Shown in pieces: positions 6,882 to 27,727 of a stretch of 64,000 nucleotides of DNA; the stretch's first letter is position 1, and every line of letters starts with the position of its first letter. This DNA is from Methanomassiliicoccales archaeon LGM-DZ1. Its GTDB lineage: Archaea > Thermoplasmatota > Thermoplasmata > Methanomassiliicoccales > Methanomethylophilaceae. The stretch spans positions 1,488,001 to 1,552,000 of the forward strand of contig CP115556.1 of assembly GCA_030168595.1 (NCBI GenBank), given 5' to 3'. Made by a program: the position numbers and the translations under genes. The notes below the pieces were generated by a model that did no database searches, was not told where the DNA came from, and was given only the letters and a program-made list of their open reading frames with translations.

Positions 6882-6904
6882 CAATTGGATTATACATCCA
6901 ATTG
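6882..6904. promoter_or_regulatory. Palindromic operator O1 upstream of the first binding protein
   Basis: A perfect 9-bp inverted repeat CAATTGGAT/ATCCAATTG around a TATAC spacer. The 17-bp core (6885-6901) recurs at five further promoters in this window. A TATA box (TTTATAA) lies near 6854-6860, so transcription should start within or at the edge of the palindrome. That position suits a repressor. The gene starts at 6912. A second pair of the same half-sites lies upstream at 6812-6817 and 6833-6838. Confidence 0.75.
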
Positions 6905-6911
6905 TGATATT

Positions 6912-8303
6912 ATGCCTAAAAACCAAATGTACTTGCTGATCGGCGCCATCATCGTTGTAGTAGCAGTCGCAGCGGTTGCCGCCGTCGTGATCTCTGATGA
7001 CGATGATGACAACAATAACGGGACGTCCAAGGAAATCGGGGAGCTCGGGACATATATCACCGTGTACGGAAACGCGAACAACGACCTGTACATCAACGAC
7101 GGCGATATCGATCAGCTTCAGGCAATCATCGACAGCGAGAACGGATGGGAGAAGAGCAAATATCCCTATGCGGACGCAAACCAGGACGGCACTGTAGACT
7201 CTAAAGACATCGATTTCGTCAGGTCGATGATAAACGGCGACTCGATGCAAGTCTACTATGAGGATTACTACGGCGACGTCACTACCGTCAACTATCCTCT
7301 GACCAATGTCAATATCGCGGTCACATACTATCAGCAGGCCGAAGCATGTGCGGTACTCGGCGTGCTGGATGACGTCAAGGTCGTATCCAAGGCAGCCAGC
7401 GTGTATGGGACCATGTGGCCCACGCTCGCGGATGAAGTGGAGTGGGGGACTACCGGAAGCAGTGCAATCACCGACGACGCCGTCGAGAAATTCATCTCTA
7501 ACAACGTGAAACTTGTCGTCTGCACCCCCAGGACGGAAAACCATGAACTTGCCACTGAATTGTTCGAAGAACGCGGCATCAGTTTCATCCAGCTCTGGTA
7601 CAACGGGGAGTACTGCATCCCGACCATGATGACCATGGGATTCCTCATGGATAAGATGGACAAGGCCCAGGCGTACACAGATTACTGCAACGATACCATC
7701 AAAGATCTTACATCGAAGATCACCGACAGTTCCGCGAAGACGGCATTGGTGATCAGCGGTTACACCGCAGATACCGACAGCATCTCCATATTGGGAAATG
7801 AAAGGCACGGCACTTACGTTCTTATCAACAAATATCTTGCCAAGTGTTACACTGAAAGCGGAACGAACCAGTTCGGCTTCGTTTACCACAATGTAGAGTG
7901 GCTCATCACCAACAGCTCGAATTTTGATTACATTGTCTATGCGATGTCCGGCAACTCGGGCTACTCGGATGATCAGACAACGAACACGTACTACACCCAG
8001 AGCTCCTATAACGAGAAATTCGAGGATACTGTTTCTTATTTCATCAAAACCAACGCGTACAAGAACGGAAACATCATCGGAAGCGAATATCCCAACACCT
8101 TCGGATATTCTGCTTATGCGATTCTTCCGATTATCGCGGCCCAGATGTATCCCGATCTCTTCGATCTCAATGATGCATTCGATCATCTGCAGGAGTGGTT
8201 CGACAAGTACAATGTCGTCAACATCGACGTCAAGAAGAACGGCCCGATCACCTATACCGGAACCGTGTTCCAGGCGAGCTATCCCCAACTGGCCGTCAGC
8301 TGA
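6912..8303 (+). CDS. Membrane-anchored FecB/BtuF-type binding protein with dockerin-like repeats (importer 1)
   Basis: 463 residues from ATG 6912. An open frame begins earlier at a TTG inside the operator, which I reject as a start. An N-terminal hydrophobic anchor (about 7-28) and an acidic linker precede two dockerin-like calcium loops: VYGNANNDLYINDGDID at about 51-67 and YADANQDGTVDSKDID at about 86-101. The remaining 350 residues resemble iron-complex/corrinoid binding proteins of class III importers. This is the extracellular receptor for the permease and ATPase that follow. The ligand is unknown; a metal chelate or tetrapyrrole is the usual substrate of the family. A hairpin separates it from the permease gene. 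Confidence 0.8.
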   Translation: MPKNQMYLLIGAIIVVVAVAAVAAVVISDDDDDNNNGTSKEIGELGTYITVYGNANNDLYINDGDIDQLQAIIDSENGWEKSKYPYADANQDGTVDSKDIDFVRSMINGDSMQVYYEDYYGDVTTVNYPLTNVNIAVTYYQQAEACAVLGVLDDVKVVSKAASVYGTMWPTLADEVEWGTTGSSAITDDAVEKFISNNVKLVVCTPRTENHELATELFEERGISFIQLWYNGEYCIPTMMTMGFLMDKMDKAQAYTDYCNDTIKDLTSKITDSSAKTALVISGYTADTDSISILGNERHGTYVLINKYLAKCYTESGTNQFGFVYHNVEWLITNSSNFDYIVYAMSGNSGYSDDQTTNTYYTQSSYNEKFEDTVSYFIKTNAYKNGNIIGSEYPNTFGYSAYAILPIIAAQMYPDLFDLNDAFDHLQEWFDKYNVVNIDVKKNGPITYTGTVFQASYPQLAVS

Positions 8304-8326
8304 ATTCTGAGCAGGGAAACAACTTA

Positions 8327-8343
8327 GCGGCCGCTATGGCCGC
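8327..8343 (+). terminator. Intra-operon hairpin between binding protein and permease (importer 1)
   Basis: Stem GCGGCC/GGCCGC with a 5-base loop, 24 bases after the stop of the binding protein gene and with no T-run. A hairpin at the same position occurs in all four importer operons. It probably stabilises the upstream transcript end or attenuates read-through, so that the receptor is made in excess. Confidence 0.5.
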
Positions 8344-8360
8344 ACATCACGGGGCACAAA

Positions 8361-9470
8361 ATGTCCGAAAAGAGCGACCGCATCATAGAGAATGCTGTGA
8401 ACGCCTGGCTGGCAGATGACATCAAGATCAATGAGGTCTTGGTCAATTACCACAGGAATACACTCAAGAAAGTCTTCGTTATCGTGCTGTGTCTGACGCT
8501 AGCCGCCATAGTCGCTGGTTTTGCTATCACGATCGGAGATTTGCATGTAGGATTTTTCAATTCTTACGGAGTCATCCTCGCTCACCTCACGGGCGATGTA
8601 ACCGACGATAACGCCGACTACATCATCTGGGAATGGAGGCTGCCGAGGGTACTTACCGGGCTTATTGCCGGGGCCGGGCTGGGCATCGCCGGAGCCGTGA
8701 TGCAGTGCATTCTCAGGAATCCTCTTGCCGATCCGTATACGACAGGGATATCCTCGGGGGCTAGCCTGGGGGCTTCTATCGCCATAGGCCTCGGCGTATC
8801 ATTCGTCAGCGGAGTCTATGGGACAGTCATCACCGCTTTCATATTCTCTCTCATACCGATGGCCATCATCATGGCGGTCTCCAAAATGAAGGGGGCAACG
8901 CCGACAACGATGATCATGGCCGGTATCGCCGTCATGTATATCTTCAATGCATGCACGATGATGATCAAGCTCTGGGTGGATCCCGATAAATTGGAGGAGA
9001 TATACAGATGGTCGGTCGGAACGATCGACGGCGCCAAATGGGACCAAGTCTACGTCATGTTCATCGTGGTCTTTGCTGGATATGTCGCTGTCCAGCTGCT
9101 GTCCCGCCGCCTCAATGTTCTGTCTACCGGAGATGAAAGCTCAAGGTCAATCGGCGTCAATGCCAACCAGTTGAGGCTGCTGTGCATGTTCATCGTTTCG
9201 TTGCTGACTGCAGGCGTTGTAAGTTTCACCGGCCTCATCGGGTTCATCGGCCTTGTCAGCCCTCATATCGTCCGCCTGGTAATCGGTTCCGACAATCGTT
9301 TCCTCATTCCGGCTTCCGGAGCCTTCGGAGCTGCGCTACTGATACTTTCAGATACTGTAGGCAGAACGCTGATCGAGGGCACGGTCATACAGGTCGGCGT
9401 CATCACTGCGTTCATCGGAGGTCCGATGTTCCTGTATCTTATCATCAGGCAGAAAAAGGAGGAGATCTGA
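8361..9470 (+). CDS. FecCD/BtuC-type ABC importer permease (importer 1)
   Basis: 369 residues with about ten membrane segments. Family signatures are clear: LPRVLTGLIAGAGLGIAG, RNPLADPYTTGISSGA, GLIGFIGLVSPHIVR and a conserved C-terminal GVITAFIGGPMFLYLI. It forms the channel dimer of a class III importer that takes the ligand from the preceding binding protein. The ATPase gene follows after two bases. N-terminal residues 1-45 are a charged cytoplasmic extension also seen in the other three permeases here. The start ATG 8361 gives the full family length. Confidence 0.92.
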   Translation: MSEKSDRIIENAVNAWLADDIKINEVLVNYHRNTLKKVFVIVLCLTLAAIVAGFAITIGDLHVGFFNSYGVILAHLTGDVTDDNADYIIWEWRLPRVLTGLIAGAGLGIAGAVMQCILRNPLADPYTTGISSGASLGASIAIGLGVSFVSGVYGTVITAFIFSLIPMAIIMAVSKMKGATPTTMIMAGIAVMYIFNACTMMIKLWVDPDKLEEIYRWSVGTIDGAKWDQVYVMFIVVFAGYVAVQLLSRRLNVLSTGDESSRSIGVNANQLRLLCMFIVSLLTAGVVSFTGLIGFIGLVSPHIVRLVIGSDNRFLIPASGAFGAALLILSDTVGRTLIEGTVIQVGVITAFIGGPMFLYLIIRQKKEEI

Positions 9471-9472
9471 GC

Positions 9473-10264
9473 ATGTCCATAATCTCTGTCGAAGATCTTC
9501 ATGTGGGTTACAGTGAAGGTTCTGAGATTCTGCACGGCATCTCTTTCGAGATTGATGAGCCGGAATACGTATGCATCATCGGGCCGAACGGCGTCGGGAA
9601 ATCTACTCTGATCAAAGCCGTCGGCGGCATAATAAAGCCCCGCTCGGGGCACGTGAAAGTATTCGACACAGACGTCGGAGAATACAGTCTGAGGGAACTG
9701 TCGAAACTCGTAGGATATGTCCCTGTTATCTCCTCCGATTTCAATGTTCTTTCCGTGCTCGATACCGTCCTGATCGGCCGCTATTCCCACCAGAAATGGC
9801 GCACGACGCAGAAGGACATCGCGATCGCCATGAAGTCGCTGAAAGCCATGGAGATCAGCGATCTTGCAGAACGCCGCTTCAACGAGCTGTCTGCCGGACA
9901 GCACCAGAAGGTCGCGATTTCCAGAGGTCTTGTGCAGGAGCCCAAGATTCTGATGCTTGATGAGCCTACTGCCAACCTGGATATTCGCCATCAGATTTAC
10001 GTCTCGGCTTTTCTGAGGAAACTCAGTGAAAAGACCCAGACAACTTGTTTCACCGTAAGTCACGATCTCAATCTGGCTGCCAAGTACGCTACGAAGGTGA
10101 TCGTCCTGCAGAGGCCCGGGAGGATATATGCGATCGGGAAGCCCAAGGATGTGATCACAGAGCAGATGATCCGCGACGTTTATGAGGTTGAGAGCAAGGT
10201 GATCGATGATAACGGGGTCCCTCACGTCATACTGGATGGTGTAATGGAAGAGTCGCACGAATGA
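9473..10264 (+). CDS. FecE/BtuD-type ABC importer ATPase (importer 1)
   Basis: 263 residues from ATG 9473, behind a strong GGAGGAG ribosome-binding site. Walker A GPNGVGKST at 37-45, signature LSAGQHQK, Walker B ILMLDEPTANLD and switch SHDLN are all intact. It powers the permease encoded two bases upstream. The C-terminal extension (DVYEVESKVIDDNGVPHVIL) recurs in the ATPases of importers 2-4, which marks the four as recent paralogues. Confidence 0.93.
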   Translation: MSIISVEDLHVGYSEGSEILHGISFEIDEPEYVCIIGPNGVGKSTLIKAVGGIIKPRSGHVKVFDTDVGEYSLRELSKLVGYVPVISSDFNVLSVLDTVLIGRYSHQKWRTTQKDIAIAMKSLKAMEISDLAERRFNELSAGQHQKVAISRGLVQEPKILMLDEPTANLDIRHQIYVSAFLRKLSEKTQTTCFTVSHDLNLAAKYATKVIVLQRPGRIYAIGKPKDVITEQMIRDVYEVESKVIDDNGVPHVILDGVMEESHE

Positions 10265-10603: not shown

Positions 10604-10620
10604 ATGGATTATACATCCAG
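10604..10620. promoter_or_regulatory. Palindromic operator O2 upstream of binding protein 2
   Basis: ATGGAT-TATAC-ATCCAG, matching the O1 core with intact TGGAT/ATCCA arms. A TATA-like TATAAT lies at 10575-10580, placing the expected transcription start at the operator's left arm. The preceding 200 bases hold an ATCAATCCAAC element (10415-10425), also found upstream of cbiD and cbiJET, and nothing else that I recognise. Confidence 0.7.
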
Positions 10621-10628: not shown

Positions 10629-12026
10629 ATGATGAAGAGCCAGATGTATATGATTGCAGGAGCTGTGGTCGTCATCGCGGTAATCGCGGCCGCCGCCTAC
10701 GTTGTGCTGTCCGGCGATGATGATAGCGATGACGAGACGGCTTACGATCTCACGGTCACGCGCCTCACTGTCTTCGGCAACGCGGACAACGACGATGACC
10801 TCGACAGCGATGATGTCGTGTTCATCAATAAGATTGTCAGCGGGGAGGCCGAGTGGGACTCTTCGGCGAACCCATATGCCGATGCCGACGGGAACGGTGT
10901 CGTCGACAGCAAGGACGCCGACTACCTGAACGCCATAATCAGCAAGGATACGGCGGCCGCCCCGAAGATATTCTATGCGGACGTCAACGGCAGGATGGCC
11001 TCCGTTTCCCAGCCTGTCTCCAAGCTGGGCGCCGATTACTGGCCGACCATCGACGGCATCATCGCGATCGGGGCCCAGGGCCTCGTCACCTATGTCGACA
11101 GCGGGATCTACAACCAGCTGTCAAGCAACGCCCTCAAGTACAACACGCTGACCCAGAGTTCCGTGCAGAACTTCGGAAGCGGGTTCGGCACCGGCTATGA
11201 TTTCGAGACGGTCGTGGCCACCGGGGTGGATGCGATGGTCTGCGGTTCTGCCGACATCTACTTCGTCGGGATCGAGAACAAGTTCGACGACAGCACCCGC
11301 ATCGATATGATCAGGCTGCCGTTCTGGGAGGGCGACAGGGTCGACTCTGCCGTCATCACTCTCGCATACCTGCTCAACAACGACACGTACATCGCCAAAG
11401 CGAAGGAGTTCCTGAGCTTCGAAGACGGAATAACCCAGACTATCGAGAACGGCCTGTCCGGCATCACAGAGAAGGCCACTTCCCTCGTCATCTACATCGG
11501 TTCCTCGACCGAGAAGAACCTCGATGTCGAGATCGAAGCCAGAGGGTGCGGCAGTTTCGAATGGTCGGTCATGGGAGGAACGGACAACCTATCCTCCGAC
11601 ATCAACAGCTCCGGTGCCCTCAGGTCCGATTCCATGTACTATCAGACCGATCAGGATTATGTCATCAGCAAGAACCCGGACTACGTGTTCATCCTCGGGA
11701 AGGCAGGGTTCAACAGGACCGCCTCCGACTCGCAGGCCTCATTCGATGCCGGCGCGGCCTATCTGACCACCACCGACGCTTACAGGAACGGGCACATCTG
11801 GGTCTCCGGCTCCGGCGTCACTTCCGGAACCATGCAGAAGGTCACCGCCCTCCTGCTGGCCACGATGGTGTACGAGGACAGGTTCTCAGGTGTGGACGCG
11901 CACTCCTATCTGCAGGAGTTCGTCGACACCTTCACCCTCGCCAACGCAGGCGTCAGTTCTTCGGATGACGGGTACTACAACGTCCGCGAATCCGGGGAAT
12001 GGATCTACAAGCCGACCTCGTCCTGA
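10629..12026 (+). CDS. Membrane-anchored FecB/BtuF-type binding protein with dockerin-like repeats (importer 2)
   Basis: 465 residues from ATG 10629; ATG 10632 is equally possible, and the open frame begins at a GTG on the operator edge. The layout matches the first receptor: hydrophobic anchor at about 8-28, acidic linker, dockerin-like loops FGNADNDDDLDSDD at 49-62 and YADADGNGVVDSKD at 83-96, then a binding-protein fold of about 350 residues. The ligand domain is clearly diverged from receptor 1, so the two may bind different ligands. It heads the operon that precedes the nitrogenase-like pair. Confidence 0.8.
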   Translation: MMKSQMYMIAGAVVVIAVIAAAAYVVLSGDDDSDDETAYDLTVTRLTVFGNADNDDDLDSDDVVFINKIVSGEAEWDSSANPYADADGNGVVDSKDADYLNAIISKDTAAAPKIFYADVNGRMASVSQPVSKLGADYWPTIDGIIAIGAQGLVTYVDSGIYNQLSSNALKYNTLTQSSVQNFGSGFGTGYDFETVVATGVDAMVCGSADIYFVGIENKFDDSTRIDMIRLPFWEGDRVDSAVITLAYLLNNDTYIAKAKEFLSFEDGITQTIENGLSGITEKATSLVIYIGSSTEKNLDVEIEARGCGSFEWSVMGGTDNLSSDINSSGALRSDSMYYQTDQDYVISKNPDYVFILGKAGFNRTASDSQASFDAGAAYLTTTDAYRNGHIWVSGSGVTSGTMQKVTALLLATMVYEDRFSGVDAHSYLQEFVDTFTLANAGVSSSDDGYYNVRESGEWIYKPTSS

Positions 12027-12068: not shown

Positions 12069-13163
12069 ATGTGGGGAATAAGCAGCGACAGTTATGATCC
12101 CGAGAGCGGAGGCTCCAAGCGCGACTTCGTGATCTCCAGGTACGGGCGTTACATCCGTTTCAAGTTCCTCTTCATGGCCGTCTGCGCGGTCGTGGCCGTC
12201 TTTGTGTCCCTGTATGCGCTGACCGTCGGCGGATACCACATAGAGTTCGCCGAGACCTATCGGATCCTGGCGGACCACATACGCGGGGACGTCTCGGACC
12301 CTACGAAGGACCTGATAGTCTGGGACACCAGGCTCCCGAGGGTCATCACGGGGATAGTGGTGGGGGTCGCCCTTGCATCGGCGGGCGCCGTCATGCAGAG
12401 CATCATGAAGAACCCGCTGGCCGACCCGTACACAACCGGCATCTCATCGGGCGCCTCCTTCGGCGCCACCCTGGCGATGACCATGGGCTTCACCGTCGCC
12501 GGCGGTTCCGCCGGGCTGATCGTCAACGCCTTCGTCTTCTCGCTCATACCGGCGGCCATAATCATCCTGGTGTCCGGGATGAAGGGCGCCACCCCGACGG
12601 TCATGATCCTGTCGGGGATCGCCGTCATGTACATCTTCAACGCGTTCACGACGCTGTTCATGCTCCTCGCAGACCCAGAGGACCTGGCGGCAGTGTACAG
12701 CTGGCAGGTAGGGTCGCTCGGAAGGTCCAGCTGGGACTACATCCCGGTGATGACGGCCGTGACCGCCGCCGGGGTGCTGGCGCTCCAGTTCCTGGCGGGC
12801 AAGATCAATGTCCTGACCACAGGAGACGACAACGCGAAGTCCCTGGGCATCGAGGCCGGGAAGCTGAGGATATTCTGCCTCATCGTGGTGTCGCTGGTCA
12901 CGGCCAGCGTTGTCAGCTTCACAGGGATCATCGGCTTCGTCGGGCTGGTCTGCCCTCATGTCGTCAGGATCTTCCTCGGCTCCGACAACCGCTATCTGAT
13001 ACCTGCCTCAGCGCTGTTCGGCGTGGTCCTCGTGCTCGTTTCCGACGTGGTCGGCAGAACCCTGCTGTACCCCACCGTCCTGCAGGTTGGAGTGGTCACT
13101 GCCTTCATCGGCGGCCCGATGTTCCTGTATCTGATAATCAAAGCGAACAGGAGAGCCCTCTGA
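12069..13163 (+). CDS. FecCD/BtuC-type ABC importer permease (importer 2)
   Basis: 364 residues with the family motifs LPRVITGIVVGVALASAG, KNPLADPYTTGISSGASF, GIIGFVGLVCPHVVR and GVVTAFIGGPMFLYLI. About ten membrane helices follow a cytoplasmic N-terminal extension. The stop overlaps the ATPase start (TGATG), so the two subunits are translationally coupled. Its closest relatives in the window are the other three permeases. Confidence 0.92.
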   Translation: MWGISSDSYDPESGGSKRDFVISRYGRYIRFKFLFMAVCAVVAVFVSLYALTVGGYHIEFAETYRILADHIRGDVSDPTKDLIVWDTRLPRVITGIVVGVALASAGAVMQSIMKNPLADPYTTGISSGASFGATLAMTMGFTVAGGSAGLIVNAFVFSLIPAAIIILVSGMKGATPTVMILSGIAVMYIFNAFTTLFMLLADPEDLAAVYSWQVGSLGRSSWDYIPVMTAVTAAGVLALQFLAGKINVLTTGDDNAKSLGIEAGKLRIFCLIVVSLVTASVVSFTGIIGFVGLVCPHVVRIFLGSDNRYLIPASALFGVVLVLVSDVVGRTLLYPTVLQVGVVTAFIGGPMFLYLIIKANRRAL

Positions 13164-13972
13164 TGGAGATCGATGTTGCCGATCTGGAATTCTCCTACGG
13201 CATGGGGAAGAAGGTCCTCGACGACATATCGTTCCGTCTCTCGGACGCCGGCCTGATCTGCATCATAGGTCCCAACGGCGTCGGGAAATCGACCCTCGTC
13301 CGCTGCATGAACAAGATCCTGAAACCGACCGGAGGCACGGTGACCGTCGACGGGCGCGACATCTCCGAAATCAGGCTCAGGGAACTGGCTCAGCATATGG
13401 GGTACGTCCCCACATCCTCCGAGGACGATTTCCCGATGACCGTCTTCGACACGATACTCCTGGGAAGGACGCCGAAGCAGGCGTTCGGCACTTCCAAAGA
13501 GGATTACGACAAGGTCTACGACGTCATGGAGATGCTTGGCATAGAGGACCTGGCCATGAGGCCGTTCAACGAGCTCTCGGCGGGCCAGCACCAGAAGGTG
13601 GCCATCGCCAGGGGGCTTGTCCAGGAACCGGAGGTGCTGATCCTCGACGAGCCCACTGCGAACCTGGATGTGAAGCACCAGGTCGTCGTGCTGAAGATGC
13701 TGAGGAGACTGGCGGCCGAGAAGAAGATGAAGGTCGTTATGATCGTCCACGACCTCAATATAAGTGCCAGATACGCGGATAGGATAATCCTGATGTCGCC
13801 TCCGGGCATCATCAGGCAGATCGGGACCGCAGAGGAGGTCCTGACCGAGGAGAACATGGCCGCCATCTACGGGGTCCGCACGAAGATCATCACCGTCGAA
13901 GGCAAACCCCATGTCATCGTGCTAGACGACCTGGAAGGAACGGACCGAGGCCATCCATGTTATGGAACATGA
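13163..13972 (+). CDS. FecE/BtuD-type ABC importer ATPase (importer 2)
   Basis: 269 residues. Walker A GPNGVGKST at 36-44, signature LSAGQHQK, Walker B VLILDEPTANLD and the switch His in VHDLN are intact. The first codon overlaps the permease stop. The tail (LEGTDRGHPCYGT) is about ten residues longer than in the paralogues. The nitrogenase-like gene begins 178 bases downstream with its own operator, so it is controlled in parallel rather than simply co-transcribed. Confidence 0.93.
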   Translation: MEIDVADLEFSYGMGKKVLDDISFRLSDAGLICIIGPNGVGKSTLVRCMNKILKPTGGTVTVDGRDISEIRLRELAQHMGYVPTSSEDDFPMTVFDTILLGRTPKQAFGTSKEDYDKVYDVMEMLGIEDLAMRPFNELSAGQHQKVAIARGLVQEPEVLILDEPTANLDVKHQVVVLKMLRRLAAEKKMKVVMIVHDLNISARYADRIILMSPPGIIRQIGTAEEVLTEENMAAIYGVRTKIITVEGKPHVIVLDDLEGTDRGHPCYGT

Positions 13973-14113: not shown

Positions 14114-14130
14114 ATGGATTATATATCCAA
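14114..14130. promoter_or_regulatory. Palindromic operator O3 upstream of the nitrogenase-like genes
   Basis: ATGGAT-TATAT-ATCCAA, the same 17-bp palindrome as at the importer promoters, 20 bases before the nifH-nifD-like start. The inner TTATATA is itself a good archaeal TATA box, and another candidate (CTATAAC) lies at 14106-14112. Either way a protein bound here would block initiation. Its presence ties the nitrogenase-like enzyme to the same regulon as the importers. Confidence 0.7.
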
Positions 14131-18861: not shown

Positions 18862-18878
18862 TTGGATTATACATCCAA
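18862..18878. promoter_or_regulatory. Palindromic operator O4 upstream of binding protein 3
   Basis: TTGGAT-TATAC-ATCCAA, identical to the O1 core. A TATA-like TTATAT lies at 18831-18836, about 30 bases upstream, so transcription starts at the left arm. The gene follows at 18892 behind AAGGGG. The region also serves the divergent methyltransferase gene. Confidence 0.75.
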
Positions 18879-18891: not shown

Positions 18892-20235
18892 ATGAACATG
18901 AAGATACTGACCGTCGCAGCAGTGGCGGCGGTCATCGCGGTCGCAGCAATTGCGTTTGCGGTCATGGACGACGACAACGACAGCAGCAAGCCGGACCTGA
19001 CAATCAGTGATGTCGACGGCATCAGGCTGATCGTCTACGGGAACGCCAACAATGATGACACGATCGATTCGAACGACCGTGCCATAATAGAATCCATAAT
19101 CGACGGGGAGACTGTCTGGGACAGCAGCAAGGCCCCTTACGCGGATGCTAACGCCGACGGCACGGTCGACAGCAAGGACCTGGACCTTGTCGATGCGATC
19201 ATCAACGGGACCGAGGGGACGTACGTTTACTACTCGAACTATCAGGGGCATGCTACGAAGGTGGCGTACCCGACCCCGACCGATAACGTCGGCACGATGT
19301 ATTACCAGGCGGCGCAGATTTCCATCCTCTTCGGCATCTGGGACAATGTGAAGGCATGCGGAGTGACATCTCTGAACGACACCGCGAACCCCGGTTACGA
19401 GAGCAAGATTTCTTACGGATCCGGATACAACGTCGACCCCCAGACGGTCGTGAGCTCCGGCGTGACCACGATCATCTGCTACACTCAGACCGATACGACG
19501 GCGGCCGACATGGTCAACCTCGTCGAAACCACCGGATACGGGCTCAATGTCCTCTGCGTGAACCATGAGCATCTCCTGCAGTGCGTCTGCACTTACGGGT
19601 TCCTCTTCGGTCTGACAGACATCTCGGACAGGTATCTGGAACTGGCCGACAGGTGCTCCGAGAGCATCCAGGCATCGATGTCCGGCGTAGCCTCGCAGGA
19701 CCAGCCCACCGTCACCGGAGTGATGCTCTACAGCACTGCCACGACGGAAAAGATCCGCGTGCTCGGATGGAATCCTGCAGGGAACACCCACAACCTCGCC
19801 AAACTGATCCACTCCGTGCCCAATGTCAACTGGCTGAGGGCAGACAGCGACGAATCTCCTGCATACGGCGTGTACGTCAAGACCGAATGGTTCCTGACGG
19901 AAAAGCCTGACTACATCCTCGTCGTCGGTTCGGGGCTGACATCATCCTCGATGACTGCGGAAGAGTGCCAGGAGACTTATCATGCGAAATGCAAGGAGGT
20001 CTTCGGGGAGACCGAGGCGTACAAGAACAACCATATCATATGCACCAGCAACGGGATGCTGAACACCTACTCTAACCCGCTTGTCTCTCTCCGCATTCTG
20101 TCCTACGTCTACAGCGAGATCGACAGTTCGCTTGCCGATGAGGCGTACAGTGCGTGGTATACGTTCACGCTGCACAAGGAGGGCGATCTCGCCACCGAAG
20201 GCATCTACGTGATCGGGTCCGCGCTTGATTCGTGA
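18892..20235 (+). CDS. Membrane-anchored FecB/BtuF-type binding protein with dockerin-like repeats (importer 3)
   Basis: 447 residues. Hydrophobic anchor at about 4-25, then VYGNANNDDTIDSND at 48-62 and YADANADGTVDSKD at 83-96 (dockerin-like loops), then the ligand-binding lobes (GTMYYQAAQISILFGIWD, TTIICYTQTD, FLTEKPDYILVVG). It is preceded by O4 and a ribosome-binding site AAGGGG and followed by a 9-bp hairpin. It is the receptor of importer 3. Ligand unknown. Confidence 0.8.
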   Translation: MNMKILTVAAVAAVIAVAAIAFAVMDDDNDSSKPDLTISDVDGIRLIVYGNANNDDTIDSNDRAIIESIIDGETVWDSSKAPYADANADGTVDSKDLDLVDAIINGTEGTYVYYSNYQGHATKVAYPTPTDNVGTMYYQAAQISILFGIWDNVKACGVTSLNDTANPGYESKISYGSGYNVDPQTVVSSGVTTIICYTQTDTTAADMVNLVETTGYGLNVLCVNHEHLLQCVCTYGFLFGLTDISDRYLELADRCSESIQASMSGVASQDQPTVTGVMLYSTATTEKIRVLGWNPAGNTHNLAKLIHSVPNVNWLRADSDESPAYGVYVKTEWFLTEKPDYILVVGSGLTSSSMTAEECQETYHAKCKEVFGETEAYKNNHIICTSNGMLNTYSNPLVSLRILSYVYSEIDSSLADEAYSAWYTFTLHKEGDLATEGIYVIGSALDS

Positions 20236-20288: not shown

Positions 20289-21437
20289 ATGGCAGGAAGT
20301 GTTGAAACAGACCCTCTGATCGGCGATATTGTCCGCGAATCCATCCTTTCGTGGGATGATGCGGGGCCGGACAAGAAGAAGGAGCAGGTGCTGGACGGCT
20401 ACCGCCGTTATTATGCCAGGCGGTGGATCTTCATATCGGCATGCGCCGCCGCGCTCATCGTCCTCTCCGGAGTATCGCTCACCATCGGGGATTACAAGAT
20501 AGATTTCTTCAGATGCTTCTCCGTCGTATGGGAACACATCACGGGGAACGTCGGTACCTCTGAGGAGGCCAGGCTCCAGGATTATGTCATTTGGAACCTG
20601 AGGCTGACGACCGTATGCGGCGGCATAATCGCCGGAGTGGCCCTGTCGATATGCGGGGTCGCCATGCAGAGCATCCTCAAGAACCCCCTGGCGGACCCGT
20701 ATACGACCGGGGTCTCGTCGGGAGCAGGTTTCGGTGCGACGCTGGCCATAGTCGCCGGATCATCCGTGGTCACCGACCAGTATGCTGTCGTCGGCAATGC
20801 GTTCATCTTCGCACTGGTGCCTACGGCGGTGATCCTCGCAGTCGCGAAAATCAAGAATTCGTCGCCGGCGACGATGATAATGGCGGGCGTCGCCGTGATG
20901 TACGTGTTCAATGCGCTGTCCACGATCATCAAACTGTGGGGAGACCCGAACTCCCTGTCGGCAATCCTGGAATGGCAGGTCGGATCCATCGGAGGCATAT
21001 CGTGGAAGAACCTGACGCTCATGTTCTTCGCCACGGTGATAGGCCTGATCATAATCCAGTCCCTGGCCAGGGAACTCAACGTCCTGGCGACGGGCGAGGA
21101 CAGCGCCAAGGCCCTGGGCCTGGACGTGGAAAGGCTCAGGAACCTGACCATGATCGTGGTGGCGCTGTTGGCGGCGGCCATCGTCAGCTTCACCGGTCTC
21201 ATCGGTTTCGTCGGGCTCATAGCCCCGCATGCGGCCCGGATAATCATCGGAGCGGACAATAGGTATCTCGTGCCTGCATCCGCTCTCCTCGGTGCAGTCG
21301 TGCTGATCTCCGCAGAAATCGTCGGGAAGACCCTGATGTCCCCGTCCGTCATCCCGGTAGGGGTGATAACCTCGCTCCTGGGAGGCCCGATATTCCTCTG
21401 GCTCCTGCTTCGGCGCAAATCGGAGGTGTGGGGATGA
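20289..21437 (+). CDS. FecCD/BtuC-type ABC importer permease (importer 3)
   Basis: 382 residues, the longest of the four permeases because of a 55-residue acidic cytoplasmic N-terminus. Family signatures are KNPLADPYTTGVSSGAGF, GLIGFVGLIAPHAAR and GVITSLLGGPIFLWLL. Its stop overlaps the ATPase start by ATGA. It carries the ligand delivered by receptor 3. Confidence 0.92.
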   Translation: MAGSVETDPLIGDIVRESILSWDDAGPDKKKEQVLDGYRRYYARRWIFISACAAALIVLSGVSLTIGDYKIDFFRCFSVVWEHITGNVGTSEEARLQDYVIWNLRLTTVCGGIIAGVALSICGVAMQSILKNPLADPYTTGVSSGAGFGATLAIVAGSSVVTDQYAVVGNAFIFALVPTAVILAVAKIKNSSPATMIMAGVAVMYVFNALSTIIKLWGDPNSLSAILEWQVGSIGGISWKNLTLMFFATVIGLIIIQSLARELNVLATGEDSAKALGLDVERLRNLTMIVVALLAAAIVSFTGLIGFVGLIAPHAARIIIGADNRYLVPASALLGAVVLISAEIVGKTLMSPSVIPVGVITSLLGGPIFLWLLLRRKSEVWG

Positions 21438-22213
21438 AGCTGGAGATCAAAGGCATGTCGTACAGGTATTCAGGCGGCAGCTCGGTTCTCAGAGACATAG
21501 ATCTGGAACTGATCGGTCCGGAGCTCGTCTGCATAATCGGACCCAACGGCGTCGGGAAATCCACCCTCGTGAAATGCATCAACCGCCTCGTGAGGCCCGG
21601 AGAGGGAACGGTCCTCCTGGACGGTGTAGATGTATCGTCATATTCCCGCAAGGACCTGGCCATGAGGATAGGGTACGTTCCGCCGGACTCGAGGGACATG
21701 TTCTCGATACCTGTCCTCGATGCCATCATGATCGGCAGGCACAACATCCAAGGATGGAGGAACACAGAGGCTGATGTGGATGCTGTCTACGGGATAATGA
21801 AACTACTGGGAATCGAAGACCTGGCTATGAGGAATTTCAACAGGCTCTCCTCGGGGCAGCGTCAGATGGTGAGCATAGCCAGGGGACTGGCCATGGATAC
21901 GCCGGTTCTCATCCTGGACGAGCCGACCTCCAATCTTGATGTGCGTTATCAAGTGTATGTGACCGAGATGCTCAGAGGCATAGCCGAGAAGAAGGACAGG
22001 CTTATCATCATGATAAGCCACGATCTCAATATCGCGGCTAAGTATGCCGATGAGGTCGTCGTCATGTCAGAGCCCGGTATCGTGTACGCGCACGGCAGTC
22101 CGAAGGAAGTCATCACAAGGCAGACCGTCCGCGATGTCTATGGGGTGGACTGCGAGATCGAGGACCATTCGGGCATTCCGCATGCGGTCCTCGGTTCCGT
22201 TCTCAGGAAATGA
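21434..22213 (+). CDS. FecE/BtuD-type ABC importer ATPase (importer 3)
   Basis: 259 residues from ATG 21434, which overlaps the permease stop and lies behind GGAGGTG. Walker A GPNGVGKST at 36-44, signature LSSGQRQM, Walker B VLILDEPTSNLD, switch SHDLN. The signature differs slightly from the LSAGQHQK of the other three, which suggests this is the more diverged copy. A remnant of the nifK-like gene follows 60-odd bases downstream. Confidence 0.93.
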   Translation: MKLEIKGMSYRYSGGSSVLRDIDLELIGPELVCIIGPNGVGKSTLVKCINRLVRPGEGTVLLDGVDVSSYSRKDLAMRIGYVPPDSRDMFSIPVLDAIMIGRHNIQGWRNTEADVDAVYGIMKLLGIEDLAMRNFNRLSSGQRQMVSIARGLAMDTPVLILDEPTSNLDVRYQVYVTEMLRGIAEKKDRLIIMISHDLNIAAKYADEVVVMSEPGIVYAHGSPKEVITRQTVRDVYGVDCEIEDHSGIPHAVLGSVLRK

Positions 22214-22360: not shown

Positions 22361-23578
22361 TCAGGCCGAAGTTCGCTCCGGAGCCCGCCTGTCCTTCTTC
22401 TCGCGGATGACCTCGCACATCTCCACAATGTGCCTGATGCACTGTCTGTCCGACAGGCGGTAGAGAGTCTCCTTGCCGCTCTTCTCCGCTTCCACCACGC
22501 CGGCGTCCTTCAGGAACCGGAGATTATGGGAAGTTAGCGATTGGGAGCACCCTGATACTTCGGCCAATTGGCTGACGTTCAGCCTCCCCGCCATCAGAGC
22601 CGAGATCATGCGCATGCGCTTCTCGTCCGACATGGCCTTCAGCACGAGCATGATGTTCTTCTCGAAGGCATCCGCGTAGCCATGGATGCCCAGGACGTCG
22701 CCGGTGTCGATTATGGGATAATTGGTAGCGTCCTCCAGCGGGCTGACATTCCCGGCGGGCGACTTGGCGCTGATGACGAAGTTCGACGGCAGCTCCGTAA
22801 GGCCGTTGTGCGTGAGGACGGAATACGGCTGGCTGTCCAGCGATCTCACGCGGATGTCCGTCATCCCTATCCCCATGAAGGCGGAAACATCCCACGCCGG
22901 CCTTCTGGCACGGCTCATGGGGAGGTCCTTGGCGATGTCGCGGATGATGTTGAAGTCCACATGGTCCACGTTGGTCTCCGCATGCAGGCCGTCGTTCATC
23001 CCGTGCTTGGTCATCTCCATGTACCGCGAGCGCCGGCGGTAATCTTCGTCATAAAGGTCGAGGTAATAGTTGCCGTCTATCACCACTATGCTCCCTCCCG
23101 GAAGCAGGAGCTCTTTCCATGCCGAGTACGCGCCGGCCGGGTCGGTCAGGTTCCAGACCGTGTTGCGCGATACCGCCAGGTCGAAGGAGCCCTTCTTCAG
23201 AGGAGGGTCCTGGACGTCACCGAGGACGAAATCGATGTCGACCCCTGCCGCGGCGGCGTTCTCGCGGGCGCAGTCCAGCATTTCCGGGGAATTGTCTACG
23301 GCGGTCACCTCATGCCCTCTGAGGGCCAGCTGGATAGCGGTCAGCCCGGCGCCTGTTCCCATGTCGGCGACCCTGAGGCGGCGGTCGAGGTTGACGGAGC
23401 TGCCGATGATGCGGAGGATGCGGTCGTTCTCGCGCTCAAGGGATACGCGGGTGGCGCGGCTGTACCCTTCAGCGCGCATGTCCCAGTATCTGCGTATCCT
23501 CTCCTCCAGGGAGCCCTCGCACAGATGCTGGCCGCAGGCGTCGCTGTCCTCCGGAACGGCCATCTGATCAGATTCCAT
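22361..23578 (-). CDS. SAM-dependent methyltransferase fused to ArsR-type winged helix (2)
   Basis: 405 residues from ATG 23578; the frame is open to 23605, but those codons lie inside operator O6. Motif I ADMGTGAG at 71-78, AVDNSPEM as the SAM-binding acidic end, SRNTVWNLTDP and LLPGGSIVVIDGNYYL in the methyltransferase half. A winged helix follows from about 325 (MSDEKRMRMISALMAGRLNVSQLAEVSGCSQSLTSHNLRFLKDAGVV). It is the paralogue of the gene at 17598-18725 and sits in the same relative place, behind a nifK-like 3' end. The promoter carries the regulon operator, so it is probably autoregulated or co-regulated with the importers. Confidence 0.87.
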   Translation of the reverse strand: MESDQMAVPEDSDACGQHLCEGSLEERIRRYWDMRAEGYSRATRVSLERENDRILRIIGSSVNLDRRLRVADMGTGAGLTAIQLALRGHEVTAVDNSPEMLDCARENAAAAGVDIDFVLGDVQDPPLKKGSFDLAVSRNTVWNLTDPAGAYSAWKELLLPGGSIVVIDGNYYLDLYDEDYRRRSRYMEMTKHGMNDGLHAETNVDHVDFNIIRDIAKDLPMSRARRPAWDVSAFMGIGMTDIRVRSLDSQPYSVLTHNGLTELPSNFVISAKSPAGNVSPLEDATNYPIIDTGDVLGIHGYADAFEKNIMLVLKAMSDEKRMRMISALMAGRLNVSQLAEVSGCSQSLTSHNLRFLKDAGVVEAEKSGKETLYRLSDRQCIRHIVEMCEVIREKKDRRAPERTSA

Positions 23579-23583
23579 TTCTG

Positions 23584-23600
23584 TTGGAACTATAATCCAA
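23584..23600. promoter_or_regulatory. Palindromic operator O6 upstream of methyltransferase 2
   Basis: Reads TTGGATTATAGTTCCAA on the minus strand, 17 bp with TGGA/TCCA arms, six bases before the methyltransferase start. A minus-strand TATA box TTTATATG lies at 23603-23610. A separate perfect palindrome ATGAATATTCAT sits just upstream, around 23610-23621. Confidence 0.65.
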
Positions 23601-23680: not shown

Positions 23681-23697
23681 TTGGATGTATATTCCAA
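23681..23697. promoter_or_regulatory. Palindromic operator O5 upstream of binding protein 4
   Basis: TTGGAT-GTATA-TTCCAA, same length and TGGA/TCCA arms as the other copies but with a changed spacer. A TATA-like TTTAAAT lies at 23650-23656, about 28 bases upstream, and the gene starts at 23707. This repeats the layout of O1, O2 and O4. Confidence 0.7.
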
Positions 23698-23706: not shown

Positions 23707-25074
23707 ATGGACAATAAAATAATCGGAGCGATCGCCGTCGTGGCGATCCTCATAGCGGCGGGCGCGGCAGCCGTTGTTCTGATCAAGGACGACGGCGACG
23801 ATAATGTCGCCGACAGCAACAGCATGGTCGGCCGCCTGACCGTTTTCGGAAACGCCAACAACGACGATTACATCAACAGCGATGACGTCGACGAGGTCAA
23901 AGCGATCCTCGCGGGCGAGAAGGAGCCGGTATACTTCAGCTGTTACAAGGAGTACAAGGGCAGCGTTGCCAAAAGGTCCTTCGCGGACGCCAATGCGGAC
24001 GGGACGATCGATGAGACCGACCTGCAGCTGATCCAGGACATGGTCGACCGCAAGGAGGGCATGAAGATCTACTTCTACGATGTGGATGGGGTCATCAGCT
24101 CCTGCACCTATCCACTCACCACGGCGGCCGTCGGATACAAGAGCAACTACGAGTCGCTCAAGATCATCGGCGCGGTGGACACCGTCAAGTACATCTGCAA
24201 CCAGGTCGGAGATAACGGAGCATACCACAAGTGGTATGCCGATTTCGACAATGATAACACGGAATGCTTCGGCAGCCGCTTCACTCCCGACTATGAGGTC
24301 ATGAAGGACGATTCTCCGAGCTACATCCTTTCCGGCACCAGGGCCTGGTTCGATTCCAACATGGAGAGCACCGTGGCCCCCCTGGGGTGCGACGTGGTCC
24401 GCCTCCCGTTCTGGGAGGACAACCAGACCGTGCCTGCGATCATCACCCTCGGATACCTGACCGGCCACGAGGATAACGCCTACGCCTACGCTGAGAAGGC
24501 GGACGCGGTCTACAAGACCATCGAGAACGAGCTTTCCGGAGTTGAGCTCAAGGACAGGCCGCTGGTGTTCGCATCCTACAACGGCACCAGCATCTCGACC
24601 ATGCATAACGGTATCCAAGAGCTCGTCACCCTGGCGGGCGGAAGGACGCCCATCGATGCCGGGTATACGAGCGGCAGCATTGACCTCGAGGAGGTCGCCG
24701 ACAACATGAATCCCGACTGGATCGTCCTGGATACCTACTTCGGATTCCTCGAAACCTACACGACGCTCGAGGAGACCAAGAACAAGGAGGTCGATCAGCT
24801 CACCAATACCGACAACAAGTATGTCCAGGCCATCGACCACACCCAGGCCTACAAGAACGGCAATGTCCTGTTCCTGACCCAGGGCGTCTACATGGGGCCC
24901 GCCAGCTACATCTCGTGCGCGTACCTGGCCAACCATCTGTATCCGGACAGGTTCAGCTTCGACGTCGACGCGATGTTCGCCGACTACGTCTCGTCCTACC
25001 ACTCCGACTACAGCGCCTCGGACTTCGCCGGCATCGAGTACTTCGACCTGGAGACCCTGAAAACCTACCTCTGA
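23707..25074 (+). CDS. Membrane-anchored FecB/BtuF-type binding protein with dockerin-like repeats (importer 4)
   Basis: 455 residues from ATG 23707; the open frame begins upstream of the operator, which I reject. Anchor at about 5-26, dockerin-like loops FGNANNDDYINSDD at 47-60 and FADANADGTIDETD at 92-105. A 22-residue insert with SCYKEYKG separates them and is absent from the paralogues. The binding domain contains VVRLPFWEDNQTVP, close to the IRLPFWEGD segment of receptor 2, so receptors 2 and 4 are nearest relatives. It heads an operon that also contains a methyltransferase gene. Confidence 0.8.
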   Translation: MDNKIIGAIAVVAILIAAGAAAVVLIKDDGDDNVADSNSMVGRLTVFGNANNDDYINSDDVDEVKAILAGEKEPVYFSCYKEYKGSVAKRSFADANADGTIDETDLQLIQDMVDRKEGMKIYFYDVDGVISSCTYPLTTAAVGYKSNYESLKIIGAVDTVKYICNQVGDNGAYHKWYADFDNDNTECFGSRFTPDYEVMKDDSPSYILSGTRAWFDSNMESTVAPLGCDVVRLPFWEDNQTVPAIITLGYLTGHEDNAYAYAEKADAVYKTIENELSGVELKDRPLVFASYNGTSISTMHNGIQELVTLAGGRTPIDAGYTSGSIDLEEVADNMNPDWIVLDTYFGFLETYTTLEETKNKEVDQLTNTDNKYVQAIDHTQAYKNGNVLFLTQGVYMGPASYISCAYLANHLYPDRFSFDVDAMFADYVSSYHSDYSASDFAGIEYFDLETLKTYL

Positions 25075-25080: not shown

Positions 25081-25103
25081 AGGGAGGGGCTATGCCCCTC
25101 CCT
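25081..25103 (+). terminator. Intra-operon hairpin behind binding protein 4
   Basis: Perfect 10-bp stem AGGGAGGGGC/GCCCCTCCCT with a TAT loop, six bases after the stop of the binding protein. It is the fourth example of a stable hairpin at this place in the importer operons. Confidence 0.55.
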
Positions 25104-25121
25104 GATGGTCATTGAGATAAA

Positions 25122-25847
25122 ATGCAGCTTTCCGAAGATATCTGCAGATACTGGGACATGAGGAGCGACGGGTTCTCCGATGCCGTCCTCCATGAACTGG
25201 GCACCCGCGGAGAGGAGGTCTCCCGCGAAGTGGCGGGCAGGCTGGGGGTCGTTCCCGGCTCGCGCGTCCTGGATGTCGGATGCGGCCCCGGGTTCCTGTC
25301 GATCCTCCTCGCTCAGAGGGGCGCCTCGGTCACCGGGATAGATATGTCCGAGATGATGGTGCGCCGTGCCCGGGAGAATGCCGGTAACTTCGGCCTCGAC
25401 ATAGATTTCAGAGTGATGGACGCCCAGAAGATGGATTTCCGGGAAGGGAGTTTCGACGCAGCGGTCTCGCGGAGCGTGATGTGGGGCCTGACCGAGCCGG
25501 AAAGGGCATATTCCGAGATGGTCCGCGTCCTGAAGGCCGGCGGCCGCGGATACGTGTCGGACGGCAACTTCTACCGCCGGCTTTTCGATCCGCGTTATGA
25601 GTTCGTGCGGGGAGAGGATGCCTCCGGGCATGAGCGCTTCAACCGCGGCGGCGTAGACTTCGGCATCATGGAGAGGATCGCGGAAGACCTTCCGCTGAGC
25701 CGCGCCGACCGTCCGCAATGGGATTTCGGCGCATTGTGCCAGCTGGATGTTTCCGACATCGACGTCCGGATCTTCAGGAGGCCGAACGTCTCCGGCGTCC
25801 GGACGATCGCAGGATTCAGCGCAGTGTTTTCAAAAGGAGGGAACTGA
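25122..25847 (+). CDS. SAM-dependent methyltransferase inside the importer 4 operon
   Basis: 241 residues. Motif I VLDVGCGPGFLS near 49-60, GIDMSEMMVRRA, and SRSVMWGLTEPERAYSEMVRVLKAGGRGYVSDGNFY, closely parallel to the two ArsR-fused methyltransferases (the SR-x-x-V/L-W-x-L-T-x-P and DGN-F/Y-Y motifs are shared). The winged helix is missing: the protein ends after the catalytic domain. Its place between receptor and permease genes ties methylation directly to the imported ligand or its product. Small-molecule methylation is an inference; the substrate is not visible. Confidence 0.87.
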   Translation: MQLSEDICRYWDMRSDGFSDAVLHELGTRGEEVSREVAGRLGVVPGSRVLDVGCGPGFLSILLAQRGASVTGIDMSEMMVRRARENAGNFGLDIDFRVMDAQKMDFREGSFDAAVSRSVMWGLTEPERAYSEMVRVLKAGGRGYVSDGNFYRRLFDPRYEFVRGEDASGHERFNRGGVDFGIMERIAEDLPLSRADRPQWDFGALCQLDVSDIDVRIFRRPNVSGVRTIAGFSAVFSKGGN

Positions 25848-25899
25848 GATCGAACCGACCGCAGAATCCGTCCTCCCGGCAGGCGAAGATTCCGCCGAG

Positions 25900-26943
25900 A
25901 TGGAATCAGATTATCGTTTCTATATCCTGAAGAAGATCGCTTTCATCGGCATATGCATCGCCCTGATGGTCCTGGTGACAGGTTACGCGGTCACCGTGGG
26001 CTCATCGCATATCAGCATGGCGGATGTGTACCGCGACATCTGGTATCACGTGTTCGATCCGGACAGATGCGACGAGATGACGGACTGGGCTGTGTTCACC
26101 ATCAGGCTTCCGCGCATCATGACCGGGCTGGTGGCAGGCATGTCGCTGGGAGTATCGGGCGCCGCCATGCAGAGCATGATGAAGAACCCGCTGGCCGATC
26201 CGTATACCACCGGGATATCGTCGGGTGCTTCTTTCGGCGCTACCCTGGCGATCGCCATGGGTATCACGGTCGCCGGCTTCGGCGGTTCCGTGGGGCTAGT
26301 CATCACCGCGTTCGTGTTCGCGCTGATCCCGGCGGCGGTGATCATCCTGGTGTCCTCGCTGAGGAACACCTCGGCCGCCACTATGATCCTGGCCGGTATC
26401 GCCGTCATGTATCTGTTCAACGCCTGCACCACGATAATCAAGCTCAGCATCTCCGAGCAGTCGCTCTCAGCGGTCTACCAATGGTCCATCGGCGACCTGA
26501 GCGGGTCCACCTGGACATCGTTCGACGTGATCCTCGCGTTCACGGTCGTGGGGACCGCTGTTCTGATGGCGATGTCGAAGAAACTGAACATCCTCATCAC
26601 CGGCGACAAGAACGCCACCGCTCTTGGCCTCGATGCCCATAAGCTGAGGATCGTGCTGCTCCTGGTGATCTCCCTGATGGCCGCCTCGGTGGTCTGCTTC
26701 ACCGGTATCATCGGCTTCATCGGCCTGGTGGCTCCCCACATAGTGAGGATCTTCCTCGGATCCGACAACCGCTACCTGATACCCGCGTCGGCGGCTTTCG
26801 GCGCCGTCCTGCTGATGGTTGCAGACCTTATATCGAGGACGATCATCGCCCCCACGTTCCTGCCGGTCGGAGTGATAACTGCGTTCATTGGATGCCCGCT
26901 GTTCCTGTACCTGCTCATCAAGCAGAGGAAATCGATGTGGTGA
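25900..26943 (+). CDS. FecCD/BtuC-type ABC importer permease (importer 4)
   Basis: At least 347 residues from ATG 25900. Motifs are LPRIMTGLVAGMSLGVSG, KNPLADPYTTGISSGASF, GIIGFIGLVAPHIVR and GVITAFIGCPLFLYLL. The frame is open upstream and encodes a further acidic stretch (IEPTAESVLPAGEDSAE) like the N-terminus of permease 3, but it has no ATG, GTG or TTG near the strong AAGGAGGG at 25833-25841. The only codon at a suitable distance is ATC, so the true start is uncertain. The ATPase gene begins four bases after the stop. Confidence 0.9.
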   Translation: MESDYRFYILKKIAFIGICIALMVLVTGYAVTVGSSHISMADVYRDIWYHVFDPDRCDEMTDWAVFTIRLPRIMTGLVAGMSLGVSGAAMQSMMKNPLADPYTTGISSGASFGATLAIAMGITVAGFGGSVGLVITAFVFALIPAAVIILVSSLRNTSAATMILAGIAVMYLFNACTTIIKLSISEQSLSAVYQWSIGDLSGSTWTSFDVILAFTVVGTAVLMAMSKKLNILITGDKNATALGLDAHKLRIVLLLVISLMAASVVCFTGIIGFIGLVAPHIVRIFLGSDNRYLIPASAAFGAVLLMVADLISRTIIAPTFLPVGVITAFIGCPLFLYLLIKQRKSMW

Positions 26944-26947
26944 TGCC

Positions 26948-27727
26948 ATGAAGGTAGACCTCAGAGAACTGGAGTTCGGGTACGATCCGAAGGACCCCGT
27001 CCTGAAGGGGATATCATATGTCCTCGACAGGCCGGAGTTCGTCTGCATCATGGGCCCCAACGGCGTCGGGAAGTCGACCCTGATACACTGTATCAACAAG
27101 ATCCTCAGGCCGACAGGCGGGGCAGTGTTCGTCAATGACATGGACGTTTCGAAGACCAAGCTTCGTGACCTGTCCTCACATATGGGATATGTTCCCGCGT
27201 CGAGCGAGGACTCCTTCCCGCTGACTGTCGTCGACACGGTCATGGTGGGCCTGCAGAACGATTATAAGTTCGGCGGGAACAAGGACGACCTGAAGAAGGT
27301 CCATGATGTCCTCAAGCTGCTGAAGATTGAACATCTGGCTATGCGCGATTTCAACGAACTCTCCGCCGGGCAACACCAGAAGGTGGTGCTTGCGAGGGGC
27401 CTGGTCAGGTCCCCGGAGATCGTCCTCCTGGACGAACCAACTTCCAACCTCGACATCAAGCATCAGATCGAGGTCACGAAGGTCCTGAGCAGGCTTCCGA
27501 AGGAAAAGGGGATGCTGGTCATCATGATCAGCCACGACATCAACATCACAGCGAAGTTCGCCGATCGGATAATCATGCTCCACGACGGGAAGATCTTCGC
27601 AGTAGGCACTCCCGAAGAGGTTCTGACGAAAGAGAACATAAGGACCGTCTACGGGGTCGACGCGGACATCATCCAGGTGCGCGGGAGGCCTCACGTGGTG
27701 CTGAACGATTCGATCGACGATGAATGA
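26948..27727 (+). CDS. FecE/BtuD-type ABC importer ATPase (importer 4)
   Basis: 259 residues. Walker A GPNGVGKST at 36-44, signature LSAGQHQK, Walker B IVLLDEPTSNLD, switch SHDIN. It pairs with the permease just upstream. The C-terminal DVYGVD-type segment (RTVYGVDADIIQVRGRPHVVL) is shared with the other three ATPases. It is the last gene of the importer block. Confidence 0.93.
   Translation: MKVDLRELEFGYDPKDPVLKGISYVLDRPEFVCIMGPNGVGKSTLIHCINKILRPTGGAVFVNDMDVSKTKLRDLSSHMGYVPASSEDSFPLTVVDTVMVGLQNDYKFGGNKDDLKKVHDVLKLLKIEHLAMRDFNELSAGQHQKVVLARGLVRSPEIVLLDEPTSNLDIKHQIEVTKVLSRLPKEKGMLVIMISHDINITAKFADRIIMLHDGKIFAVGTPEEVLTKENIRTVYGVDADIIQVRGRPHVVLNDSIDDE

Follow-up and report, generated by a model that had tools for sequence, protein, structure and literature searches.

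What does a nitrogenase-like enzyme reduce when it is encoded among four complete uptake systems? This question is raised by a stretch of 64,000 nucleotides (the window) from the complete, 1.77-Mb genome of Methanomassiliicoccales archaeon LGM-DZ1 (contig CP115556.1, positions 1,488,001 to 1,552,000; coordinates below are those of the window unless another locus is named). Between 6.9 and 27.7 kb, the window encodes a NifH-NifD fusion (NifHD), a NifK-like subunit, four importers each made up of a substrate-binding protein (SBP), a FecC permease and a FecD ATPase, and three proteins with an S-adenosylmethionine methyltransferase (SAM-MTase) fold, MT1 to MT3. A preliminary description had recognized the four importers, the fusion and a coupled NifK, all of which are present about where it placed them. 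It had also proposed that an imported ligand is reduced by the nitrogenase-like complex and then methylated; our data lend partial support to a reductase linked to import and none to the methylation. We give about even weight to the reading developed here, in which NifHD-NifK would be an ATP-driven reductase with [4Fe-4S] clusters, belonging to a cobalt/tetrapyrrole regulon and acting on a tetrapyrrole- or corrinoid-type ligand taken up from outside; what we infer are the substrate class, the direction of the reaction and the role of the MTase-fold proteins.

Cluster ligands and phylogeny of NifHD-NifK

The fusion (717 amino acids; 14151..16304, plus strand) consists of a NifH domain at about residues 1-262, a linker and a NifD-like part at about residues 290-700; it matches Fer4_NifH at 205 bits and Oxidored_nitro at 107 bits (75 bits for NifK). 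The NifK-like gene (16301..17605, plus strand) overlaps it by an ATGA. As had been claimed, the NifH domain has an intact P-loop and the [4Fe-4S] cysteines, C89 and C122, conserved in 100% of 81 homologues. In a fold search with an AlphaFold2 (AF2) model of the fusion (predicted local distance difference test score, pLDDT, 86) the NifH half dominated and the NifD part was not placed; a phmmer search of NifK against the PDB returned nothing useful.

A nitrogenase NifHDK would carry six P-cluster cysteines as well as the cysteine and histidine that hold the iron-molybdenum cofactor (FeMoco), and was rejected. Four of the six P-cluster cysteines are kept, three in D (Cys 298, 323 and 389 of the fusion) and one in K (the invariant Cys30); Asp6 replaces NifK Cys70, and Cys153 has no counterpart. 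Across the family alignment, the equivalents of Cys62, Cys88 and Cys154 occur in 26/27, 27/27 and 27/27 D subunits and that of Cys95 in 28/28 K subunits, with Asp at the Cys70 position in 25/28 and Pro or Leu at the Cys153 position in 28/28. The equivalent of the FeMoco ligand Cys275 is absent from all 27 D subunits. In the same alignment, BchY has all three D-side cysteines and BchZ only the Cys95 equivalent, the same three-plus-one set as in NifHD-NifK; MarD and MarK keep all six together with Cys275, and NifDK and the Treponema pairs described below likewise do not have the three-plus-one set. The NifH-domain motif GCDPKHDST, present in 74/81 family members, is common to BchL and not to NifH, CfbC or MarH.

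Judged by these residues, the ligand pattern is of the chlorophyllide reductase (COR, BchXYZ) type, not of the Mar or Nif type. Because this three-plus-one set is COR-like and the PKHDST motif is shared with BchL, the enzyme probably works like COR and the dark-operative protochlorophyllide oxidoreductase (DPOR, BchLNB), yet belongs to neither. It shares with them a three-subunit logic, an expected single bridging [4Fe-4S] cluster, the lack of a cofactor cysteine and, in relatives of the window locus, BchH/CobN-type chelatases encoded nearby; it differs in the fusion of H and D, in its tree position away from Bch, in the absence of photosynthesis and in its link to importers and a cobalt-type operator. 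The [Fe4S4]-only members DPOR and Cfb have tetrapyrrole sites (PMC12552129).

In maximum-likelihood trees, built with a small sampling of references and weakly supported at the deep nodes, there is a single clade of H domains (93), separate from the NifH/MarH and CfbC/Sporomusa branches; the clade of D domains (81) has NifDE plus MarD as its sister group, and the K subunits cluster by themselves (100). None of the Nif, Mar, Cfb or Bch reference branches thus includes the pair, and it does not group with Bch subunits. By these sequence comparisons, the NifHD fusions are a deep, multi-copy clade that is new within the nitrogenase superfamily. In the literature searched, we found no description of the family, its ligands or its operator, nor of a nitrogenase-like enzyme linked to FecBCD, siderophores or CobN. 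A 'fused nifH/nifE' that an origin-of-replication table briefly mentions for Ca. Methanomassiliicoccus intestinalis (PMC4153887) is apparently the same kind of fusion; no analysis of family, ligands, neighbours or regulation was found there.

That the pair is the F430 reductase CfbCD, another [4Fe-4S]-only nitrogenase-like enzyme of methanogens, we consider next to impossible. CfbC is the best-scoring model for the NifH domain, but its 218 bits fall under the cut-off of 402; CfbD ranks very low by D-profile score (44 vs 170 bits for MarD); and CfbD is a homodimer, whereas the pair here has a NifK partner. Because the genome holds a separate cfbC-A-E-D-B cluster (L011; assigned by gene order and sequence, its NifH and NifD members also by Pfam), the pair is not CfbCD. 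The preliminary description had held that neither N2 fixation nor plain CfbCD explains the locus, and would have settled for CfbCD if the pair grouped there in a genome with no other cfbC and cfbD. The genome does have other cfbC and cfbD genes, and this cluster, the trees, the missing FeMoco cysteine and the incomplete P-cluster set all bear the description out.

Profile ranking points in another direction, D and K scoring highest to MarD/NflD2 and MarK-like sequences. MarHDK (Group IV) is the nearest known system by this score and by the D branch; IsrHDK was compared by description only (PMC11423573). Cleavage of C-S bonds as in these enzymes, by which sulfur or methyl groups would be harvested from an imported compound, could account for the profile scores and for the D branch being sister to NifDE plus MarD, but we hold it very improbable. 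In MarDK, six cysteines hold the P-cluster and a further site binds a Cys-ligated [Fe8S9C] cluster (PMC12552129); two of these six and the cofactor cysteine are missing in NifHD-NifK, and Mar/Isr chemistry was rejected on this ground. At the locus we noticed no gene of the NifB/NifX type, nor, beside the pair, a radical SAM partner of the MarB/IsrB type usual with Mar and Isr, although the neighbourhood was not scanned with radical SAM models. To our knowledge, FecBCD importers are not known as carriers of sulfonates or thioethers.

A plasmid of Treponema saccharophilum (L100, NZ_AP025290.1, 5266-14669) carries two divergent NifD/K-like pairs that flank an ATP-binding cassette (ABC) importer and adjoin nifH, nifB-like, NifX-like and sulfur genes, a Mar-type neighbourhood.

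Conserved neighbourhood and distribution

A search with the window's NifHD gave matches in 119 of the order's 147 genomes, with up to seven in each; some of these are NifH or CfbC proteins that stand alone. Across the 80 loci that were read, NifK nearly always follows NifHD; of 65 long loci, 39 have a FecC no more than about 9 kb away, against about 17% expected. CobN/Mg-chelatase H is strongly enriched near NifHD, occurring in 17 of the 65 loci against about 4% expected (binomial p about 2e-10, a value that is optimistic because the loci are not phylogenetically independent), and CobN is found, often in several copies, in 76/102 genomes of the family. Clustering the flanking open reading frames (ORFs) and scanning cluster representatives also gave ChlI/ChlD-like proteins (10 loci), the adenosylcobinamide amidohydrolase CbiZ (9) and further SBPs; FecC is a neighbour in 43 loci. 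The CobN, ChlI/D, CbiZ and FecC neighbours are spread over several genera and at least two families.

The preliminary description had staked its proposal on a neighbourhood shared with related genomes, and the link between NifHDK and FecBCD is kept in 10 genera of two families. A single pair surrounded by four importers, as in the window, was seen in the same species only (L020, fragmented in the assembly); Candidatus Methanomethylophilus sp. 1R26, with a NifHD identity of 89-92%, is the relative from that species. What relatives have in common is NifHD-NifK with importers, often together with CobN, ChlID or CbiZ. Among 84,980 species genomes, scanned with conservative seeds from the closer D subset (the family-wide D alignment being too diverse), the matches to the window's NifHD subfamily were confined to Methanomethylophilaceae-type archaea from gut or faeces. 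Two further NifHD/NifK pairs are encoded in the LGM-DZ1 genome, of which one (L010) adjoins an SBP-FecC-FecD set. Elsewhere in this genome (L108, L109), two CobN, ChlID and five FecCD permeases are clustered without NifHD. In Elusimicrobia, groups of NifH paralogues reportedly lie near corrinoid transporters and have been proposed to have a tetrapyrrole-type role, which we take as a lead only.

NifHD genes of several relatives (L040, L063, L089 and L097) have one in-frame TAG, as do some CobN genes; pyrrolysine read-through and decay are indistinguishable in these genes. A conserved pyrrolysine in NifHD was rejected because the position of the TAG differs each time.

A shared operator and its candidate regulators

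The preliminary description had also reported shared promoter elements, and these are real. A 17-bp palindrome, TTGGAT-N5-ATCCAA, stands at the promoters of SBP1, SBP2, NifHD, SBP3/MT1 and SBP4/MT2. The copies before SBP1 (TTGGATTATACATCCAA, 6885..6901) and in the divergent MT1/SBP3 promoter (18862..18878) have no mismatch; one mismatch is found 20 bp before the NifHD start codon (14114..14130), on the MT2 side (23584..23600) and on the SBP4 side (23681..23697), and two before SBP2 (10604..10620). Allowing up to two mismatches, the window has 10 matches, compared with 2.55 ± 1.47 in shuffles (0/100 shuffles reached 10), and the genome 67 sites, compared with 11 for the reversed pattern. In relatives, between -250 and +40 of the start, the operator is present at 42/85 NifHD, 22/29 SBP, 11/14 SBP12 (SBP cluster 12) and 9/15 MTase genes, compared with 14/265 other genes; a control palindrome of the same composition occurs at 0/85 NifHD genes. 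Because the program-made ORFs of SBP1 (from 6885), SBP2 (from 10620), MT2 (to 23605) and SBP4 (from 23626) start within or upstream of an operator, the first in-frame ATG beyond it, at about 6912, 10629, 23578 and 23707, appears more plausible in each case.

The gene set behind this operator points to cobalt and tetrapyrroles. In the same genome, it precedes CobN, ChlID and a CbiM-CbiN set followed by CbiQ and CbiO (CbiM 266 bits, cut-off 184); in relatives, it also precedes CbiQ and a precorrin-2-dehydrogenase-like gene. In one genome (G055, locus L026), a NifHD of the window's subfamily stands with two CbiZ and four operator-linked SBP12 genes, with CobN a few kb beyond. The set is not pure, since some sites precede genes without a clear link (NaPRTase, zinc-ribbon proteins and an MntP-like gene).

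Several individual sites were recorded. At L026:2900-8900, exact operator copies lie between and beside four tandem class III SBP genes of cluster 12 and at the NifHD promoter. Two tandem copies (L132:4100-4161) precede a 271-amino-acid zinc-ribbon-like protein beside an aldehyde dehydrogenase, and an operator-preceded, SBP-like ORF of 1092 amino acids, unusually large for an SBP, lies upstream of two FecC permeases (L109:13263-16541).

MT1 (17598..18725, minus strand) and MT2 (22361..23578, minus strand) join an N-terminal SAM-MTase fold to a C-terminal ArsR/SmtB helix-turn-helix (HTH) domain, with 60 and 70 bits to NCBIfam HTH_metalloreg (cut-off 55). Because of this DNA-binding domain, they are probably regulators rather than pathway methylases, and their position in divergent promoters makes them possible regulators of the shared operator; as ArsR-type proteins, they would likely sense the ligand or SAM. 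Only MT3 (25122..25847, plus strand) is a plain SAM methyltransferase, with the corrinoid protein-associated CpaM as its best NCBIfam match (81 bits, under the cut-off of 180). Thus, of the three SAM methyltransferases first proposed, the folds stand and the status of plain enzyme falls for MT1 and MT2; methylation of the ligand by all three is unsupported, two being MTase-ArsR fusions that are better read as sensor-regulators.

The operator also bears on a route in which NifHD-NifK, with a chelatase encoded elsewhere, would make a modified tetrapyrrole metallophore that is exported by an ABC-2 system and re-imported metal-loaded through FecBCD. An ABC-2 exporter permease (PF01061) with its ATPase does lie near NifHD-K, together with importers, in 21 loci of several genera. 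The window locus has no such pair, however, the exporter permease genes have an operator of their own in 0/21 cases, and no dedicated ring-making genes were seen; such biosynthesis and recapture therefore seems improbable to us.

Importers and the imported ligand

The importers lie on the plus strand in the order SBP1 (6912..8303), FecC1 (8361..9470) and FecD1 (9473..10264); SBP2 (10629..12026), FecC2 (12069..13163) and FecD2 (13163..13972); SBP3 (18892..20235), FecC3 (20289..21437) and FecD3 (21428..22213); and SBP4 (23707..25074), FecC4 (25900..26943; program-made ORF from 25747) and FecD4 (26948..27727; program-made ORF from 26888), MT3 being inserted between SBP4 and FecC4-FecD4. They have the parts of class III importers, namely an SBP of the Peripla_BP_2 fold, a FecCD permease and a FecD ATPase; the fold was modelled for SBP1, a membrane-anchored protein with weak Peripla_BP_2 and Dockerin_1 matches, scored at 43 bits to Peripla_BP_2 for SBP4 and assigned by homology only for SBP2 (blastp identity 25-28% to the other SBPs). 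Pairwise identities are 43-56% among the permeases and 25-32% among the SBPs; the four receptors may, as the preliminary description suggested, correspond to several ligands. Four FecCD permeases within 21 kb exceed the expectation from density, even for a genome with so many of them (17 matches in 1.77 Mb). Read by eye, two ORFs just upstream of the locus resemble a transposase (3642-4967) and, for the short one, a Vsr-type endonuclease (5654-6073).

All four SBPs had been described as dockerin-tagged. SBP3 (26.9 bits to Dockerin_1) and SBP4 (24.4 bits) do exceed the Pfam cut-off; SBP1 falls slightly under it and SBP2 has no match, although both F-hand-like repeats are legible in all four proteins. 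No cohesin (PF00963) match was found in the genome, and cellulosome-type docking was rejected. Because the repeats sit between the N-terminal membrane anchor and the binding domain, a calcium-binding spacer would be as likely as a docking tag.

The AF2 model of SBP1 (pLDDT 74) has ferric-siderophore SBPs as its best PDB matches; naming the ligand from this fold was rejected, the fold not being discriminating. The importers may instead deliver a ferric (or cobalt or nickel) chelate that is not a tetrapyrrole, from which NifHD-NifK would free the metal by reducing either it or its ligand. This siderophore or metallophore reductase stays the main rival because of the SBP1 matches and because a plasmid of Sporomusa termitida places NifHDK in a siderophore-type operon: a TonB siderophore receptor, AraC, an SBP, two FecCD permeases and an ATPase are immediately followed by NifH-NifD-NifK, with an esterase (PF00756). 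In Sporomusa, however, NifH and NifD are unfused, NifH branches with CfbC, and D and K fall outside the archaeal NifHD clade. The plasmid region itself (L104, NZ_CP036260.1, 1574-14023; pSPTER) looks like a separate nitrogenase-like/siderophore system, and a scan of viral contigs with its NifD gave no match. A low-potential, ATP-driven reductase exceeds what reduction of Fe(III) needs. This alternative also leaves CobN, ChlID, CbiZ, CbiMNQO and the precorrin-2-dehydrogenase-like gene of the neighbourhoods and the operator set unexplained, and we rate it as rather unlikely.

Because the neighbourhoods and the operator join the pair to cobalt uptake, chelatases, salvage and importers, and because its cluster site is that of a tetrapyrrole reductase, reduction of a tetrapyrrole-type ligand is the most economical reading. 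The FecBCD-type systems would import a metal chelate or tetrapyrrole-type ligand, which the NifHD-NifK complex would reduce at low potential and at the expense of ATP. The NifH domain would hand single electrons from its own [4Fe-4S] cluster to one [4Fe-4S] cluster bridging D and K, ligated by three cysteines of D and one of K; from there, as in DPOR and COR, they would pass directly to a ring in the cavity corresponding to the FeMoco site of nitrogenase. The reduced ring, or a ring freed of or refilled with metal by the CobN-ChlID chelatases encoded elsewhere, would then enter the corrinoid or nickel-tetrapyrrole pool.

Several observations weigh against this reading. The D subunit is nearest to the NifDE plus MarD branch in the tree, not to the tetrapyrrole reductases, and among solved structures SBP1 comes closest in fold to ferric-siderophore receptors rather than to BtuF or a heme receptor. 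Genes for CobN, ChlID and CbiZ are all missing from the window locus; near one further NifHD pair of the genome (L009) there is no importer and no operator; and the p-values are optimistic, the loci not being phylogenetically independent. CbiM-type transporters can carry nickel too. Finally, corrinoid salvage would not be obligatory, because the genome has de novo corrin genes: cbiD, cbiG, a fused cbiJ-cbiE-cbiT and a CbiA/CobQ-type (CobB/CobQ-type) amidotransferase lie at 43288..48880 of the window (plus strand), 16-21 kb from the importers, not adjacent to them and without the operator.

More tentatively, gut methanogens may have a reductive branch of tetrapyrrole metabolism in which several NifHD-NifK paralogues per genome differ in the macrocycle that they reduce, be it scavenged or self-made, with CobN-type chelatases, importers that are likewise paralogous and a repressor dedicated to the system and responsive to cobalt. 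Breakdown products of dietary chlorophyll, foreign corrinoids or a cobalt or nickel tetrapyrrole of a new kind are speculative candidates for these macrocycles.

Few nitrogenase-like enzymes have an assigned job, and here a common family of gut and rumen methanogens has a deep clade of them, multi-copy and COR-like at the cluster site, with a regulon and a genomic context that point to a testable substrate class, which Group IV orphans mostly lack. If the tetrapyrrole reading is true, it would clarify the relation of [4Fe-4S]-only reductases to the Nif/Mar line, and it would link methane-forming archaea of the gut to the scavenging and remodelling of the cobalt tetrapyrroles that their methylotrophic metabolism needs.

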